Positions 23,637 to 27,722 of a stretch of 27,722 nucleotides of DNA are shown one piece after another; the stretch's first letter is position 1, and every line of letters begins with the position of its first letter. The stretch is from a virus: positions 1 through 27,722 of IMG/VR virus record IMGVR_UViG_3300044621_000681; one strand, given 5' to 3'. The notes below the pieces were generated by a model. The model searched no databases and had not been told where the DNA came from. It was given only the letters and a program-made list of their open reading frames with translations. The position numbers and the translations under genes are program-made.

Positions 23637-24011
23637 TTAGTTTGATGTTAAAATATTTAGTTTTTTGTTGTTTGTGTGTAATCCTAATGTTTGTTGTACG
23701 TCTAAGAACTGAGTTTTATAAAACTTGATACATTCTATATCATTTTGGAATGTTACAAGTCCATGAATAACTGTAGTGTGATCTCTGTCAAAAGCTTGTG
23801 CTATTTCTTTTAGTGTCATCGAAAAATAACGTCTAAAAATAAAGTAGCACATATTTCTACCAAAAACCAAGTTTTTACTCCTGTTTGGCGTAACTAACTT
23901 ATATCTATCAATTTTCATGACTTCACATACTGTTTTAATTACTTGGTCAAATCTTACTTCTCTTTGTTTTAATCCTGGCATAACGTAATAGCTTATTTCT
24001 GATGCTCCCAT
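23637..24011 (-). CDS. DnaA domain IV-like DNA-binding protein
   Basis: The 124-residue protein aligns with the C-terminal DNA-binding domain of DnaA: VIKTVCEVMKIDRYKLVTPN (helix 1-2), RSKNLVFGRNMCYFIFRRYF (the R-x-x-x-V-x-x-R-Q-x-A/M-x-Y pattern), TLKEIAQAFDRDHTTVIHGL containing DRDHTTVIHG at 75-84, the DnaA signature. The AAA+ ATPase domain is missing, so it cannot load helicase by itself. It might bind an origin with DnaA-box-like sites or antagonise host DnaA. The gene-free A-tract region at 25015-25147 lies about 1 kb upstream. Confidence 0.8.
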   Translation of the reverse strand: MGASEISYYVMPGLKQREVRFDQVIKTVCEVMKIDRYKLVTPNRSKNLVFGRNMCYFIFRRYFSMTLKEIAQAFDRDHTTVIHGLVTFQNDIECIKFYKTQFLDVQQTLGLHTNNKKLNILTSN

Positions 24012-24190
24012 ATTTGGTTTTTAAGTATTTCAAGTTTTTTGTCATAGAATGTTTTGATTAACTCGGTCATCTCGTAATCATTGTTTTTAAGTCTTGTTTC
24101 TATTACATAACGACTATAGCCTGTTATTTCCATAATCTTCTTCATGTCGCCATACTTAAATAGGCTTTTGTAATCTGTAATCTCTAGCAT
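23993..24190 (-). CDS. Small helical protein, possible HTH (65 aa)
   Basis: MLEITDYKSLFKYGDMKKIM, then EITGYSRYVIETRLKNNDYE and MTELIKTFYDKKLEILKNQI: a short all-helical protein. The stretch DMKKIMEITGYSRYVIETRL resembles a helix-turn-helix (helix, G-Y-S turn, recognition helix), followed by a long charged C-terminal helix. It overlaps the DnaA-like gene by 19 bases, so the two are probably co-translated. A regulatory role is plausible; function not shown. Confidence 0.6.
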   Translation of the reverse strand: MLEITDYKSLFKYGDMKKIMEITGYSRYVIETRLKNNDYEMTELIKTFYDKKLEILKNQIWEHQK

Positions 24191-24423
24191 TTGTTTGTGT
24201 TTTTAAAGTGATTGATATGTCTGTCTATTCCTTGAACTGCTGCATCTAAAGAAGCGTAATAACTTGCTCTCCAGTAATACCATTTGCCATGTAGGATTTG
24301 GTTATCCCATGTTATAAACATCCCTTTGTAGGTGTATTGTTTTGACATTCTTCCGTTACTGTTTACATAGGTAAACTCTTCTTTGATACCTTTTTTCTTT
24401 TGTTCGAGGGTTAGTTTCAGCAT
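24184..24423 (-). CDS. Conserved hypothetical early protein (79 aa)
   Basis: MLKLTLEQKKKGIKEEFTYV, then NSNGRMSKQYTYKGMFITWD, NQILHGKWYYWRASYYASLD and AAVQGIDRHINHFKNTN: strands followed by a C-terminal helix. Rich in Tyr and Trp around a KYYWRASYYASL-like segment that could face a ligand. The overlap of 7 bases with the next gene and the A/C-rich leader support it. No function recognised. Confidence 0.6.
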   Translation of the reverse strand: MLKLTLEQKKKGIKEEFTYVNSNGRMSKQYTYKGMFITWDNQILHGKWYYWRASYYASLDAAVQGIDRHINHFKNTNKC

Positions 24424-24434
24424 TGGTTTGGTTT

Positions 24435-24641
24435 TTACTCTTGCGAGGGTTTTTGATAGATTTTTGTTTCTAGGACTTCTGTAATCCTTAATGGGATACC
24501 ATTACTTAGCTTTTCAAAGATGGCATAAGCTTCATCCTTATCCTTGTTAAATGATCCACTAATGATGATACCTTCTTGCTTTGTGTAGTACATTGTACTA
24601 CCTAAAATTAAGTCTGTGTCTTGTACAAATTCGAATTTCAT
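24435..24641 (-). CDS. Hypothetical early protein (68 aa)
   Basis: MKFEFVQDTDLILGSTMYYT, then KQEGIIISGSFNKDKDEAYA and IFEKLSNGIPLRITEVLETK: an alternating strand/helix small protein. It lies between the zinc-ribbon peptide gene and the 79-residue gene, with 11-12 base gaps. A/C-rich leader (AAAACATACAACAC). No motif or family recognised. Confidence 0.6.
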   Translation of the reverse strand: MKFEFVQDTDLILGSTMYYTKQEGIIISGSFNKDKDEAYAIFEKLSNGIPLRITEVLETKIYQKPSQE

Positions 24642-24653
24642 GTGTTGTATGTT

Positions 24654-24776
24654 TTATTGTTTAATAATAGTTTCTTCTTCTTCATCCTCTTCCCAATCGC
24701 AATGTTCTAAGCAGTCAGGACAAATATCTATTTCAGGATAATTGGTATGTGCTCCACAGCAAGTTGAGAATGGCAT
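24654..24776 (-). CDS. 40-residue zinc-ribbon-like peptide
   Basis: A short frame beginning at ATG 24776 encodes MPFSTCCGAHTNYPEIDICP, then DCLEHCDWEEDEEEETIIKQ. The cysteines CC-GAH and C-P-D-C form a zinc-binding ribbon-type knuckle pair, followed by a strongly acidic tail. The stop codon of the upstream gene and this ATG share a base (TAATG). Small zinc-ribbon proteins with acidic tails are common in phage early regions. Exact role unknown. Confidence 0.65.
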   Translation of the reverse strand: MPFSTCCGAHTNYPEIDICPDCLEHCDWEEDEEEETIIKQ

Positions 24777-24973
24777 TACTTATTAAGTTTTTGGAGTCTT
24801 GTAAAGTAGGTTTTTGGATCACCAATCTTAACCTGGCTCATGTTCCTTTCGTATTCTACAGGATGAATGCAGGTTTTTGTCTGATGATTGTAATAGGCTT
24901 GTTCGCCTTTGTCGATGACTGTGCCAGTAATACCGCACTTCATCTGGTAGCTGAGTGTGATTAATTCGTGCAT
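24776..24973 (-). CDS. Small hypothetical protein with treble-clef-like start (65 aa)
   Basis: MHELITLSYQMKCGITGTVI, then DKGEQAYYNHQTKTCIHPVE and YERNMSQVKIGDPKTYFTRL: a C-x-x-T-G-x-x-I-x-K-G-x-x-A/Y-Y pattern and one further Cys, reminiscent of the small treble-clef or ribbon proteins in which C-x-x-C is degenerate. It is the first gene of the replication block after the gene-free region. Its leader (ACACAAACAAAACAAAAAACCC) is A/C-rich. Function unknown. Confidence 0.55.
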   Translation of the reverse strand: MHELITLSYQMKCGITGTVIDKGEQAYYNHQTKTCIHPVEYERNMSQVKIGDPKTYFTRLQKLNK

Positions 24974-25014
24974 GGGTTTTTTGTTTTGTTTGTGTTGAGT
25001 GTAAAATTAGGAAG

Positions 25015-25147
25015 TTTTTGGATATATTTAAAGTTTTTAGCAGGTTTTTTGTTAAGGAAATCATAAAAGATTTTTGCTGGATTTTTGCGTAACAGATTTT
25101 TGTGGGGTTTTTGGGGAGTTTTTGCATAGGGTTTTTGGCAGGTTTTT
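25015..25147. repeat. Phased A-tracts, candidate replication origin
   Basis: Ten T-runs of 5-6 bases on the + strand (A-runs on the - strand) start at 25015, 25034, 25045, 25071, 25082, 25097, 25108, 25119, 25132 and 25143. Five of nine spacings are exactly 11 bases, and most sit in a GGTTTTTG or GATTTTTG context. Phasing near one helical turn predicts bent DNA. Because 11 is not a multiple of 3, the periodicity is not a protein repeat. It lies in the only gene-free tract over 300 bases and near the DnaA-IV gene, so an origin or regulatory bend is likely. Confidence 0.6.
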
Positions 25148-25323
25148 GGGTGCAACTGAAATTTAGTTGCATAGTCAATCAATGTTCAAACATGGATATT
25201 TTATGCCATATATTGACCTATTGACTAAAATCAATTTAAACGCTATTTTAAGCCGTTTCTAGCTTGTTTAATATGTTGGTAAGGTACTTACATAGTTTTG
25301 TATTTTTAGTGTCTTATTTCGTC
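25148..25323. promoter_or_regulatory. Gene-free control region: dyads and ATTGAC repeats
   Basis: No coding frame is convincing here. Visible elements are: a perfect 7-base inverted repeat TGCAACT (25151-25157) and AGTTGCA (25165-25171); an inverted AGTCAAT (25173-25179); two tandem 8-base copies TATTGACC and TATTGACT (25211-25217 and 25219-25226); and a 5-base dyad GTAAG-gta-CTTAC at 25279-25291. Three copies of ATTGACYA-like sequence are reminiscent of operator or iteron sites. A + strand TAGTTTTG (25293-25300) fits TAnnTTTG but points away from the - strand genes. Confidence 0.45.
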
Positions 25324-25551
25324 TTATTTTGCCAAATACTCCGCCTCTTTTATTTTTGCTATCCTTTCGGCTAATTGGTCAGTATTGTAAGATTGAAACG
25401 CAATACCTCCGCCAAATTGCTTATTGTGAAACTTACGCCCTCCTAATTGACGAGCTAAAAAAAGAGCTCTTGCGTATGTGTCAGCTAATTGCAAAAAGTG
25501 AACTACATAACGTGGGTTTCCGTTTGTGTCATTGTTAATCCTTGTAAACAT
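25324..25551 (-). CDS. Conserved hypothetical early protein (75 aa)
   Basis: MFTRINNDTNGNPRYVVHFL, then QLADTYARALFLARQLGGRK, FHNKQFGGGIAFQSYNTDQL and AERIAKIKEAEYLAK: an N-terminal strand pair, a helix and a G-G-G turn, then a C-terminal helix. This opening (R-I-N-N-D-x-N-G-N-P-R-Y-V) is one I recall from small proteins of Bacteroidota phages and mobile elements; its function is unknown. It is framed by the terminator at 25572-25594 and the control region, so it is an operon of one gene. Its promoter was not identified. Confidence 0.65.
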   Translation of the reverse strand: MFTRINNDTNGNPRYVVHFLQLADTYARALFLARQLGGRKFHNKQFGGGIAFQSYNTDQLAERIAKIKEAEYLAK

Positions 25552-25571
25552 TGTCTTTTGTTTTGGTTAAT

Positions 25572-25594
25572 ATAAAAGCCCAAATTAATGGGCT
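25572..25594 (-). terminator. Terminator after 297-residue gene
   Basis: On the - strand AGCCCA pairs with TGGGCT (loop of 6 A/T bases), followed by TTTTAT. It lies 37 bases after the stop codon of the gene at 25631-26524 and 21 bases before the ATG of the next. A second, weaker stem (gctgaatttaacagc) lies just before it. Confidence 0.7.
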
Positions 25595-25630
25595 CTTATT
25601 TCGCTGAATTTAACAGCTCATCAGTTAACC

Positions 25631-26524
25631 CTACAAAACAGCCACAATACTATTTATTTCAGTCATGGGTATTTTATGACAGCCTACCGATACGATATCG
25701 CCATCTACTCCGTTAAATGTATATCTATCGACATGCTGACCTCTTAAAAGTTCGTTATTAATTAGACGTTGATAAGCTGACAAAAACAAGTCTTTTGACA
25801 TTTTTACCCCTCCGCTTGTCTCAATATTGTCCGTTTCTTTATTGTATCTTAATAGATAGTGCCCCAAATTTGCATAAATAGATGATATTTTAAACTGACG
25901 AAAAGCCTCAATTTTTTCCTTTGCTTCAATTAGTGCCTTTGCCTCCGCTTTCTTTTTGTTCTCATCTTGTTTTATTTGCCATTGCTTAAACTCTTTTGAC
26001 TCTTGATATTCAAAAAGCCAATTATTTAATTCAGCGTATTTGTTTTGCAATGTTGGATATTCCCACAATAATTGAGCTAAATCAAAAAATTTTACATATT
26101 TATCAAATACGTCAATGGCTATTTTTGTTTGACTTATATAGCCATTTTTTAATTTGGTTGCATATATTGTCTTTTGTTGACTACCCTTTGCGTATTCTAA
26201 ATAACTTTTTAAGTTCTCTAAATGTGCGGTTGTTGATGTTTCAATATCATTAAAAAAACTTTGTACCTTAAAAAACTGAATATTTGCGGGTATTGACCTG
26301 TAAACGAGTGCTTGTTGTTTGCTTGTTGAGTTTGAATAGTGCCTATCGTTAAAAAATACACACTTTTCCCCTTGCTTGTTGGTAATGTGTTGAGCCAATT
26401 TGAAATGATAGCCGTACGAATAAATACTATCATATTCAAAAAACATGTTTGAGCCTTTGCCATGTGTTTGAGTTTGGTTCGCCCAAACGTGTGTTAATTC
26501 GCTGTTGTTAAATTTTGTTTTCAT
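25631..26524 (-). CDS. Conserved phage protein of unknown function (297 aa)
   Basis: KFNNSELTHVWANQTQTHGK opens a protein with motifs IYSYGYHFKLAQHI and FFNDRHYSNSTSKQQALVYR (H-Y-S-x-S-T-S-K-x-Q-x-x-V-x-R-x-I). These match a conserved phage family that I recall without a function. A helical middle (EFKQWQIKQDENKKKAEAKA) and a C-terminal ETSGGVKMSKDLFLSAYQRL, then VDGDIVSVGCHKIPMTEI follow. No active-site motif was identified. It is the longest gene of the right-end block. Its leader (ACAAACACA before ATG) is of the shared A/C type. Confidence 0.7.
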   Translation of the reverse strand: MKTKFNNSELTHVWANQTQTHGKGSNMFFEYDSIYSYGYHFKLAQHITNKQGEKCVFFNDRHYSNSTSKQQALVYRSIPANIQFFKVQSFFNDIETSTTAHLENLKSYLEYAKGSQQKTIYATKLKNGYISQTKIAIDVFDKYVKFFDLAQLLWEYPTLQNKYAELNNWLFEYQESKEFKQWQIKQDENKKKAEAKALIEAKEKIEAFRQFKISSIYANLGHYLLRYNKETDNIETSGGVKMSKDLFLSAYQRLINNELLRGQHVDRYTFNGVDGDIVSVGCHKIPMTEINSIVAVL

Positions 26525-26558
26525 TGTGTTTGTATTTTGTAGTGTTTAAATAGATGTT

Positions 26559-26774
26559 TTATAATTCCTCCCCGTTTGTTAAAAACATGATTGTTTCAAG
26601 TATTGAGTTTGTTTCCATGTCGTACAAATCCTCCTCCGCTTCATATATTAATTCCTCGTCGCTGTCCCTATCATATCTATACAATAAATGTATTTTATTT
26701 AAATCCTCTCCATTTTCGTTTAATTCGATTAAAAAGTCAAGTAGCTTTTTTGCTGTTAATGGTTTTTTTGTCAT
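26559..26774 (-). CDS. Acidic hypothetical protein (71 aa)
   Basis: MTKKPLTAKKLLDFLIELNE, then NGEDLNKIHLLYRYDRDSDE, ELIYEAEEDLYDMETNSILE and TIMFLTNGEEL. After a basic start, it becomes very acidic and alternates helix and strand. It has the AACTTAACACA leader shared with its neighbours. DNA-mimic or anti-defence proteins are often acidic and early, but the sequence does not prove this. Confidence 0.6.
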   Translation of the reverse strand: MTKKPLTAKKLLDFLIELNENGEDLNKIHLLYRYDRDSDEELIYEAEEDLYDMETNSILETIMFLTNGEEL

Positions 26775-26796
26775 TGTGTTAAGTTTATAAGGTTTG

Positions 26797-27057
26797 TTAA
26801 TGTGTTTTTAAAATTGTATTCCCTTGCTCGTTAATTATATCTATTTCGTCCATTTCTCTTAATGAGTCGTAAACATAGACAAAGTCGGTAAGGTTTTCGA
26901 ATAGTTCGCCTTTGTGGTACATATCAATGGCTAATTTGTCGGCCTCCTCTTGTGTGGTTGCCTCAATTATTTTTATGCTAGATGTCCAAATTGTACAAAG
27001 TTGGTCAACTTGTACCTTAAATTCTTTTGTTTCTGTTTGTGTTTGTGTGTTTGTCAT
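26797..27057 (-). CDS. Hypothetical early protein, alpha/beta (86 aa)
   Basis: MTNTQTQTETKEFKVQVDQL, then CTIWTSSIKIIEATTQEEAD, KLAIDMYHKGELFENLTDFV and YVYDSLREMDEIDIINEQGN. The strand (KEFKVQVDQLCTIWTSSIKI), helix (TQEEADKLAIDMYHKG) and strand pattern suggests a small two-layer sandwich like DpnD/PcfM- or other phage regulators. It carries the leader ACCTTAACACA. No family was firmly recognised. Confidence 0.6.
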   Translation of the reverse strand: MTNTQTQTETKEFKVQVDQLCTIWTSSIKIIEATTQEEADKLAIDMYHKGELFENLTDFVYVYDSLREMDEIDIINEQGNTILKTH

Positions 27058-27068
27058 TGTGTTAAGGT

Positions 27069-27296
27069 TTATTTGTTTAGTTTGGTATTTTGTAGATATG
27101 TTTCTATTTTATCTAATATGTTATTAAAATCATCTTGTACAAAGTCGGTATAAATCATATCACCATTTTCACAATGTTCCCAAATGGGTTGCGTTGTGTG
27201 TTCGTAGGTATGCTGAATAAATAACTCGGCTAATTCACAACTCAATTCATTGAGGTAAAATGTAGCCTTTGGGGTTGCGTCTAAAATGTTTTCCAT
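27069..27296 (-). CDS. Acidic hypothetical protein (75 aa)
   Basis: Starting at ATG 27296, the protein is MENILDATPKATFYLNELSC, then ELAELFIQHTYEHTTQPIWE and HCENGDMIYTDFVQDDFNNI, LDKIETYLQNTKLNK: mostly helical and acidic. The longer frame beginning at 27353 is rejected as the start because it would overlap the membrane gene 27323-27430, and because the ATG at 27296 has the ACAAACACA leader shared with three neighbours. No function recognised. Confidence 0.6.
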   Translation of the reverse strand: MENILDATPKATFYLNELSCELAELFIQHTYEHTTQPIWEHCENGDMIYTDFVQDDFNNILDKIETYLQNTKLNK

Positions 27297-27322
27297 TGTG
27301 TTTGTGTTTGTAGTGTTAAAGA

Positions 27323-27430
27323 TTATTTTTTGTAATTGGTTAACTCTTGCCATATTGTTAACGCAAGGGTATAAACTAAGATGCCGCCAATAAATAGGCT
27401 GATAAGTTCTAAAAGTGTAATGTGTGTCAT
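27323..27430 (-). CDS. 35-residue single-TM protein
   Basis: ATG at 27430 encodes MTHITLLELISLFIGGILVY, then TLALTIWQELTNYKK. One hydrophobic helix with a polar, Lys-ended C-terminus. The preceding gene stops one base before this ATG, and the next gene begins 26 bases after its stop codon. This places it as the second of two consecutive membrane micro-proteins at the head of the leftward early arm. Function unknown. Confidence 0.55.
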   Translation of the reverse strand: MTHITLLELISLFIGGILVYTLALTIWQELTNYKK

Positions 27431-27431
27431 G

Positions 27432-27542
27432 TTATTTAATTTTAGTTAATAAATAGTCAGTTAATAATTTAGCCATATTCCCTAAGATTAGAACGAATAA
27501 GACTAATTGGAATAACAAAAGAAAGTTGCTTAAGTGTTGCAT
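27432..27542 (-). CDS. 36-residue single-TM protein, first early gene seen
   Basis: ATG at 27542 encodes MQHLSNFLLLFQLVLFVLIL, then GNMAKLLTDYLLTKIK. The hydrophobic helix is at about residues 5-22 and the tail is basic. The A-rich leader (AACCAAAATCAAAACATT) lacks a Shine-Dalgarno sequence. The stop codon is one base before the next ATG, which indicates coupling. It is the most upstream - strand gene found in the window. Small membrane peptides at the start of early transcripts sometimes affect host membrane or entry, but nothing here proves that. Confidence 0.55.
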   Translation of the reverse strand: MQHLSNFLLLFQLVLFVLILGNMAKLLTDYLLTKIK

Positions 27543-27583
27543 AATGTTTTGATTTTGGTTATTAATAGATCCTAAAGATATGT

Positions 27584-27602
27584 AAACAATTGCAAACAAT
27601 TG
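27584..27602. repeat. Tandem AAACAATTG repeat
   Basis: Two copies of AAACAATTG (27584-27592 and 27594-27602) at a 10-base spacing lie about 40 bases upstream of the first early gene. The CAATTG core is palindromic. On the - strand a TATCTTTA sequence, close to TAnnTTTG, follows, so an early promoter with operator-like repeats is possible. Confidence 0.4.
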
Positions 27603-27652
27603 TAAATATTTATAAGTTATTTGTTAAGGAAATGTTAAAATTGATATAAGAG

Positions 27653-27700
27653 TATAAGTATTATATTATCCATTGTTTAATTAATAATTTAATACTTATA
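27653..27700. repeat. 11-base inverted repeat in AT-rich right edge
   Basis: TATAAGTATTA (27653-27663) and TAATACTTATA (27690-27700) are exact reverse complements with a 26-base spacer. A similar AGTATTATA is repeated at 27711. The last 120 bases are almost wholly A/T. No gene is seen from 27543 to the end; this may be a promoter/control or replication region. Confidence 0.4.
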
Positions 27701-27722
27701 TTATATAATTAGTATTATAATA

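Follow-up and report, generated by a model that had tools for sequence, protein, structure and literature searches.

The window, by which we mean the whole 27,722-bp stretch of the virus record, has the layout of a tailed phage, with head, connector, tail, and fibre genes running rightward and replication and small genes running leftward. The best matches of its capsid protein are in Cellulophaga phage phi10:1 (38%) and Flavobacterium phage 11b (36%), and phages of other phyla score slightly below these; a Bacteroidota host is likely from this comparison. An annotated isolate phage with the same region was sought and rejected, as blastn of 24000-27722 against annotated isolate phages returned nothing beyond two short matches (49 and 47 bases) to Staphylococcus phages. 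A small protein encoded at 23637-24011 (minus strand) carries a DnaA C-terminal DNA-binding domain (PF08299, E 2.1e-17). Short TTTTTG-rich direct repeats form an array at 25028-25150, between a TreK-like gene and the next gene, and this array may be a replication origin or a binding array.

Near the right end, four genes lie in one leftward run and probably form an operon (Table 1). The original prediction held that all four begin right after AACACA, and this was confirmed: AACACAATG has exactly four matches in the window, all on the minus strand and at the starts 26524, 26774, 27057, and 27296, compared with a mean of 0.36 and a maximum of three in shuffled sequence. Matches with one mismatch were not in excess in the window (12 found, 11.07 expected). 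The stop-to-start spacers, calculated from the coordinates, are 34, 22, 11, and 26 nt long, and A occupies positions -3, -6, and -12 in all four leaders and -13 in three. One conserved sequence thus directly precedes the starts of F0 and of three other gene families; the four genes belong to different BLAST families, and their paralogy was rejected on this ground as the origin of the common leader. For the background we hand-picked 25 ATG starts on the minus strand and used the 21 leaders other than these four; two of the listed starts are those of microproteins, while GTG/TTG starts, doubtful ORFs, and the ATG at 27353 that is the alternative to 27296 were excluded. Under position-specific frequencies with pseudocounts, AACACA is expected 0.038 times per 25 leaders and the probability of at least four in 25 is 6.6e-8 (5.4e-7 for four such leaders with plain A and C frequencies). 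The leader is therefore enriched over the A/C-rich background of the other minus-strand leaders, against which the original prediction had proposed to check it.

Table 1. Genes, leaders, and promoter-like element of the leftward run.
Feature	Coordinates	Strand	Remark
Promoter-like element AATTGTTTACATATCTTTA, upstream of microA	27573..27605	-	Recurs in several relatives
microA, 36-aa hydrophobic microprotein gene, operon head	27432..27542	-	
microB, 35-aa hydrophobic microprotein gene, stop precedes the 27296 leader	27323..27430	-	
Leader of the 75-aa gene, TCTTTAACACTACAAACACAAACACA, probable transplanted copy of an F0 leader	27297..27322	-	Probable joint at the start codon
75-aa gene, true start 27296	27069..27296	-	
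Leader of the 86-aa gene, ACCTTAACACA, starts directly after the upstream stop codon	27058..27068	-	
86-aa gene, inserted before F0	26797..27057	-	Relatives in other loci
Leader of the 71-aa gene, ends AAACCTTATAAACTTAACACA	26775..26796	-	
71-aa gene, inserted before F0	26559..26774	-	No match in PHROG/Pfam searches
F0 leader, ends AAACACTACAAAATACAAACACA then ATG	26525..26558	-	Also before F0 homologues
F0, 297 aa, phrog_7247 (unknown function), owner of the leader	25631..26524	-	

The usual gene order at the operon head is microA, microB, variable small genes, and F0. Both microproteins fall under a 50-aa ORF cut-off. Sequence conservation suggests that they are real genes, since in both codon position 2 is least variable and position 3 most variable. 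We reached microB in 34 of 41 gene chains and found it in four more (the window, L003, L010, and L011); it is absent from L018, L026, and L046 in the gene chains examined. The leader links microB straight to F0 in L007, L009, L012, L014, L015, L016, L020, L021, and L024. The arrangement also bears on the start of the 75-aa gene, which the original prediction had placed at 27296 on the strength of the leader. This start is correct: the in-frame ATG at 27353 falls within microB in another frame, and in four relatives (L001, L002, L025, and L060) the microB stop codon is in frame just upstream of the equivalent gene, so that a longer form is impossible there.

Upstream of microA, the stretch 27573-27605 holds AATTGTTT repeats and TATCTTTA, and recurs before microA in several relatives. 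The Flavobacterium sigma-A promoter is described as having a -7 box TAnnTTTG (PMC9723704), and TATCTTTA at 27573-27580, upstream of the operon head, is one base off this box. A promoter within the leaders themselves was rejected: unlike the sigma-A promoter described there, they have no G in their last 20 nt, and no exact TAnnTTTG occurs on the minus strand of about 26423-27722.

Relatives of the window F0 with 65-95% identity were found in 25 contigs, type 2 F0 proteins (28-30% identity) in 12 more (10 of the 12 aligned), and a wider alignment-based scan yielded 312 F0 relatives. In the window and its relatives, the leaders that end in AACACA number 25 of 32 distinct 30-nt ones for F0 (41 F0 loci), 8 of 36 for genes inserted before F0, and 1 of 131 for ten downstream families. 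The AACACA leader belongs to F0 and to some of the genes inserted before it rather than to the arm in general. The 36 inserted-gene leaders take in a few genes upstream of microB or in microB-less loci, and one inserted gene was dropped (L024, start 3630); the ten downstream families were hand-picked out of 86 BLAST families, many of the remainder having the appearance of antisense or chance ORFs. Three of the 41 F0 loci (L026, L046, and L036) entered via the leader pattern, and without their leaders the count is 22 of 29; two of them, L026 and L046, were later recovered by protein search too. When only the window protein served as query, the loci recovered, together with the window itself, had 19 distinct leaders, of which 13 contain AACACA and 14 contain ACACA. 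L072, a more distant relative whose leader lacks ACACA, was left out of the leader counts.

Scanning viral contigs for the extended leader AACACTACAAAN{3,14}ACACAATG returned 28 stretches, 22 of which coincide exactly with F0 starts; in seven of these cases the protein that follows is 25-29% identical, and in two it is about 48% identical. A control pattern with ATG changed to AGT gave nine stretches in viral contigs, none encoding an F0 relative. In the alignment-based scan, where leader counts rest on 80 of the 312 relatives (79 loci), ACACA occurs in 16 of 23 distinct viral leaders at F0 identities of at least 60%, in 3 of 8 at 45-59%, and in 13 of 29 below 45%, the last becoming 9 of 24 when type-2-like proteins are removed. 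The corresponding counts for the CACTACAAA block in the same 80 relatives are 9/23, 2/8, and 2/29. Before other genes of distant F0 loci, ACACA is found in 9 of 185 leaders, and in 8 of 98 G-free ones. These figures depend on distant gene starts that were set by rule and are not proven, and on a search alignment (A1) that contains type 2 and L026; type 2 itself was reached through the protein of L039, a leader-pattern match, and is thus a clade chosen for carrying the leader. F0 spacers of the G-free, Shine-Dalgarno (SD)-less kind recur at about 25-30% protein identity, also beneath unrelated upstream genes.

Sequenced genomes yielded no F0 in the single-protein scan and nine distant relatives (25-30%) in the alignment scan, and none of the nine leaders of F0 relatives in genome_contigs has ACACA. 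The start of the F0 homologue is preceded by AAGGAG in Rhizobium phage RHEph01 and by AAGGA in Synechococcus virus S-ESS1, and the homologues of csAssE-Sib and CcrKarma have other leaders, the CAAGGA of CcrKarma lying further up; from these sequences, the leader type appears to follow the host.

F0 had no match in Pfam and NCBIfam and none in the PDB at E <= 0.001. Ten BFVD entries matched it at this threshold, all of them phage proteins without a name or a characterised function; one carries the label DUF8033. VIA-align rows reached Z 8.5, mainly over helices 91-189, which is within the range of unrelated helical models, and with no PDB match a fold assignment was rejected. A terminal-repeat label is found at the F0 match in 14 of 31 phage records, all 14 being Caulobacter phages, and the homologue lies 1.1 kb from the genome end in RHEph01 and 1.3 kb in S-ESS1. 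It is about 9.5 kb from the end in csAssE-Sib and internal in Brevundimonas phage BabaJaga, Pseudomonas phage PMBT3, and Limnohabitans phage YIMV22061. The gene after F0 (25324-25551, minus strand) encodes a relative of the Staphylococcus phage terminal-repeat protein TreK (PF24229, E 9.9e-21). By analogy only, the labels, the near-end homologues, and the adjacent TreK relative point to early expression of these genes. This relative of a Staphylococcus phage protein is found here in a likely Bacteroidota phage.

The likeness of F0 leaders exceeds what base composition gives. When type 1 F0 is paired with type 2 F0 and the genes upstream differ, the leaders have an average identity of 0.748 (190 pairs; the type 1 set included L026 and L046), compared with a mean of 0.618 and a maximum of 0.634 in 100 sets of shuffled leaders in which the last three bases were held fixed. 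The type 1 versus type 2 medians are 0.77 for the leader, 0.57 for the upstream flank, and 0.62 for the downstream flank, and where both loci have the same gene upstream (52 pairs), the medians are 0.85 for the leader versus 0.66 and 0.63 for the flanks. Among homologous genes at 24-55% protein identity, a comparison whose distant set also included pattern-derived loci, median leader identity is 0.65 for F0 (730 pairs) versus 0.59 for non-F0 genes (547 pairs), and identities of at least 0.8 occur in 16% versus 2.9% of pairs. The F0 leader excess among diverged homologues is real but modest. As pairs are not independent, we give no pair-based p-values as probabilities, save for one null result: leaders of F0 and inserted genes of the same locus (40 pairs) are no more alike than those of different loci (1600 pairs; median 0.63 in both, p = 0.55). 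This result lends no support to concerted evolution among the leaders of one genome.

Several comparisons reveal sharp changes of identity at start codons. Over the last 100 nt before the window 75-aa gene, identity to the sequence preceding F0 is 0.85-0.90 for L012 and L015 and 0.67-0.92 for L020, and further upstream it drops to about 0.65. Compared with the equivalent gene of L001, the gene itself is 0.92-0.94 identical, the leader 0.62, and the upstream sequence 0.53. Since the upstream part resembles the F0 region of L012 and L015 and the gene resembles that of L001, a joint at the start codon is the simplest reading, and it is well supported by these alignments that the 27296 leader is an F0 leader that moved with the preceding microB. 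A similar joint separates L063 and L014, where the last 100 nt before the leader are 0.98-1.00 identical, the leader 0.85, and the downstream sequence 0.67 and then 0.56. The 86-aa gene of L004 (2708) and a gene of another family in L022 (4755) share a leader at 1.00 identity, with 0.53 downstream, and identical 40-nt leaders precede different F0 types in two cases (L110 versus L126/L132, and L117/L118 versus L135). Leaders of 30 to 40 nt that are identical before unrelated genes or different F0 types thus represent joints at the start codon. The original prediction had offered recent duplication of leaders as a possible origin. This is well supported for one pair, 26524 and 27296, and fails as a rule: leaders of the same locus are not more alike, and AACACA is present in only 1 of 10 distinct leaders of the 86-aa gene (2 of 3 for the 71-aa gene and 1 of 4 for the 75-aa gene). 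Because same-locus leaders are generally no more alike than cross-locus ones, the window's row of four AACACA leaders is an exception.

The composition of the leaders fits SD-independent initiation. None of the 32 distinct F0 leaders has a G in its last 20 nt, and AGGA/GGAG is absent from the last 20 nt of these and of the 36 inserted-gene leaders. The original prediction that SD sequences are missing holds for the four window leaders but does not extend to all genes of the group, as 7 of 131 downstream-gene leaders have AGGA/GGAG-type strings. F0 leaders carry A at -3 (97%), -6 (94%), -12 (100%), and -13 (84%), versus 63%, 63%, 85%, and 70% in the downstream-gene leaders, and conserved C at -2 (94%) and -4 (88%). 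Mean folding energy over -30..+20 is -0.12 kcal/mol at F0 starts (32) and -0.18 at inserted-gene starts, compared with -1.37 at downstream starts (157) and -5.42 inside F0 (164).

Profiling and reporters in Flavobacterium johnsoniae identified A at -3, -6, -12, and -13 as positive determinants (Baez et al. 2019, PMC6847099), and Bacteroidia ribosomes are reported not to recognise SD sequences, since bS21, bS18, and bS6 form a pocket that retains the 16S tail (PMC9976891). The Kozak-like regions described for F. johnsoniae and the F0 leader are alike in lacking an SD sequence, in A at these four positions, and in having little structure near the start (PMC6847099). In F. johnsoniae, what is described is a statistical preference over genes, whereas the F0 leader is a specific spacer, about 20-35 nt long and favouring C at -2 and -4, that tracks one family; the adenine rule leaves these C residues and the CACTACAAA block unexplained. 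The start-associated sequence (SAS) of cluster K mycobacteriophages resembles the leader in being a short conserved sequence before the starts of non-structural genes of different families, and its role in translation is presented as proposed rather than demonstrated (PMC3203893). That element is given as GGGATAGGAGCCC with an SD core, in 11-19 copies per genome (PMC3203893). The leader described here differs in being G-free and SD-less, and its four copies in the window all lie at a single operon head; the SD-core consensus GGGATAGGAGCCC is not matched by F0 leaders, which have no G in their last 20 nt.

Taken together, we consider it probable that the leader is a Kozak-like, SD-independent initiation region that also marks recombination joints. 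Each of the four AACACA-ATG sites would form the downstream end of a short G-free spacer within a single leftward run of genes, and in the cell the leader may act as a strong initiation region that brings about early translation at a high level. The well-supported joint at start codon 27296 would have placed an F0 leader before the 75-aa gene. Because such leaders recur, they could double as homologous seams at which small genes are swapped, gained, and lost. The copies at 26774 and 27057 sit in short spacers and may have acquired the same ending through the same preference plus chance, or through an older exchange. The specific translation signal of the original prediction is in this respect favoured by sequence comparison, given its fit to SD-less initiation in Bacteroidota and its retention at about 25-30% F0 identity; such comparison cannot separate selection for translation from factor binding, nor fully from exchange.

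The sharp joints (L063 versus L014, L004 versus L022, and the window 75-aa gene versus L012/L015 F0), the two instances in which different F0 types share an identical 40-nt leader, and the similar leaders before unrelated gene families would also be expected if the leader were mainly a homologous recombination seam, evened out by earlier exchange, with no translational role beyond A-richness. We regard this as unlikely, since F0 leaders remain alike beneath unrelated upstream genes (0.748 versus a shuffle maximum of 0.634) and, in the 52 pairs with a shared upstream gene, exceed both flanks, a pattern not predicted by simple hitch-hiking, although exchange at an earlier time may have made the leaders more uniform. 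Slightly less likely again is a binding site for a trans-acting factor, through which, for example, F0 would repress its own translation or a host or phage RNA-binding protein would act. The conserved bases outside the adenine rule (C at -2 and -4, and CACTACAAA in 9 of 23 close leaders) and the tracking of one gene family through deep protein divergence speak for it, but CACTACAAA is missing in many leaders, the BFVD matches offer only uncharacterised proteins, and F0 has no recognised RNA-binding fold, although the lack of a PDB match does not exclude one.

Chance agreement among A/C-rich leaders could draw on the absence of an excess of one-mismatch matches, the shortness of the 26774 and 27057 leaders, and the poor retention of AACACA before the 86-aa gene (1/10, with 2/3 for the 71-aa gene). 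Set against a probability of about 7e-8 relative to the other arm leaders and the recurrence of AACACA before F0 in relatives, we find chance very improbable, and for the F0 and 27296 leaders it is largely refuted.

The favoured reading, a Kozak-like initiation region that also marks joints, has a broader form, which is speculative and to which we give a low probability: the leader would be a start-associated element for SD-blind ribosomes, a G-free sequence read by the host machinery or by a trans factor, possibly F0, that gives the head of an early operon priority in translation and offers the standard plug-in joint for small host-takeover genes. To our knowledge, little is known about how phages of Bacteroidota secure ribosomes without SD pairing. 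Our literature search returned no paper on such a leader in these phages, which is weak evidence of absence, and the nearest case was the mycobacteriophage SAS. A leader that is kept while the F0 protein diverges to less than 30% identity provides a ready test element, aids start calling in these phage genomes, and reveals a joint for gene exchange.
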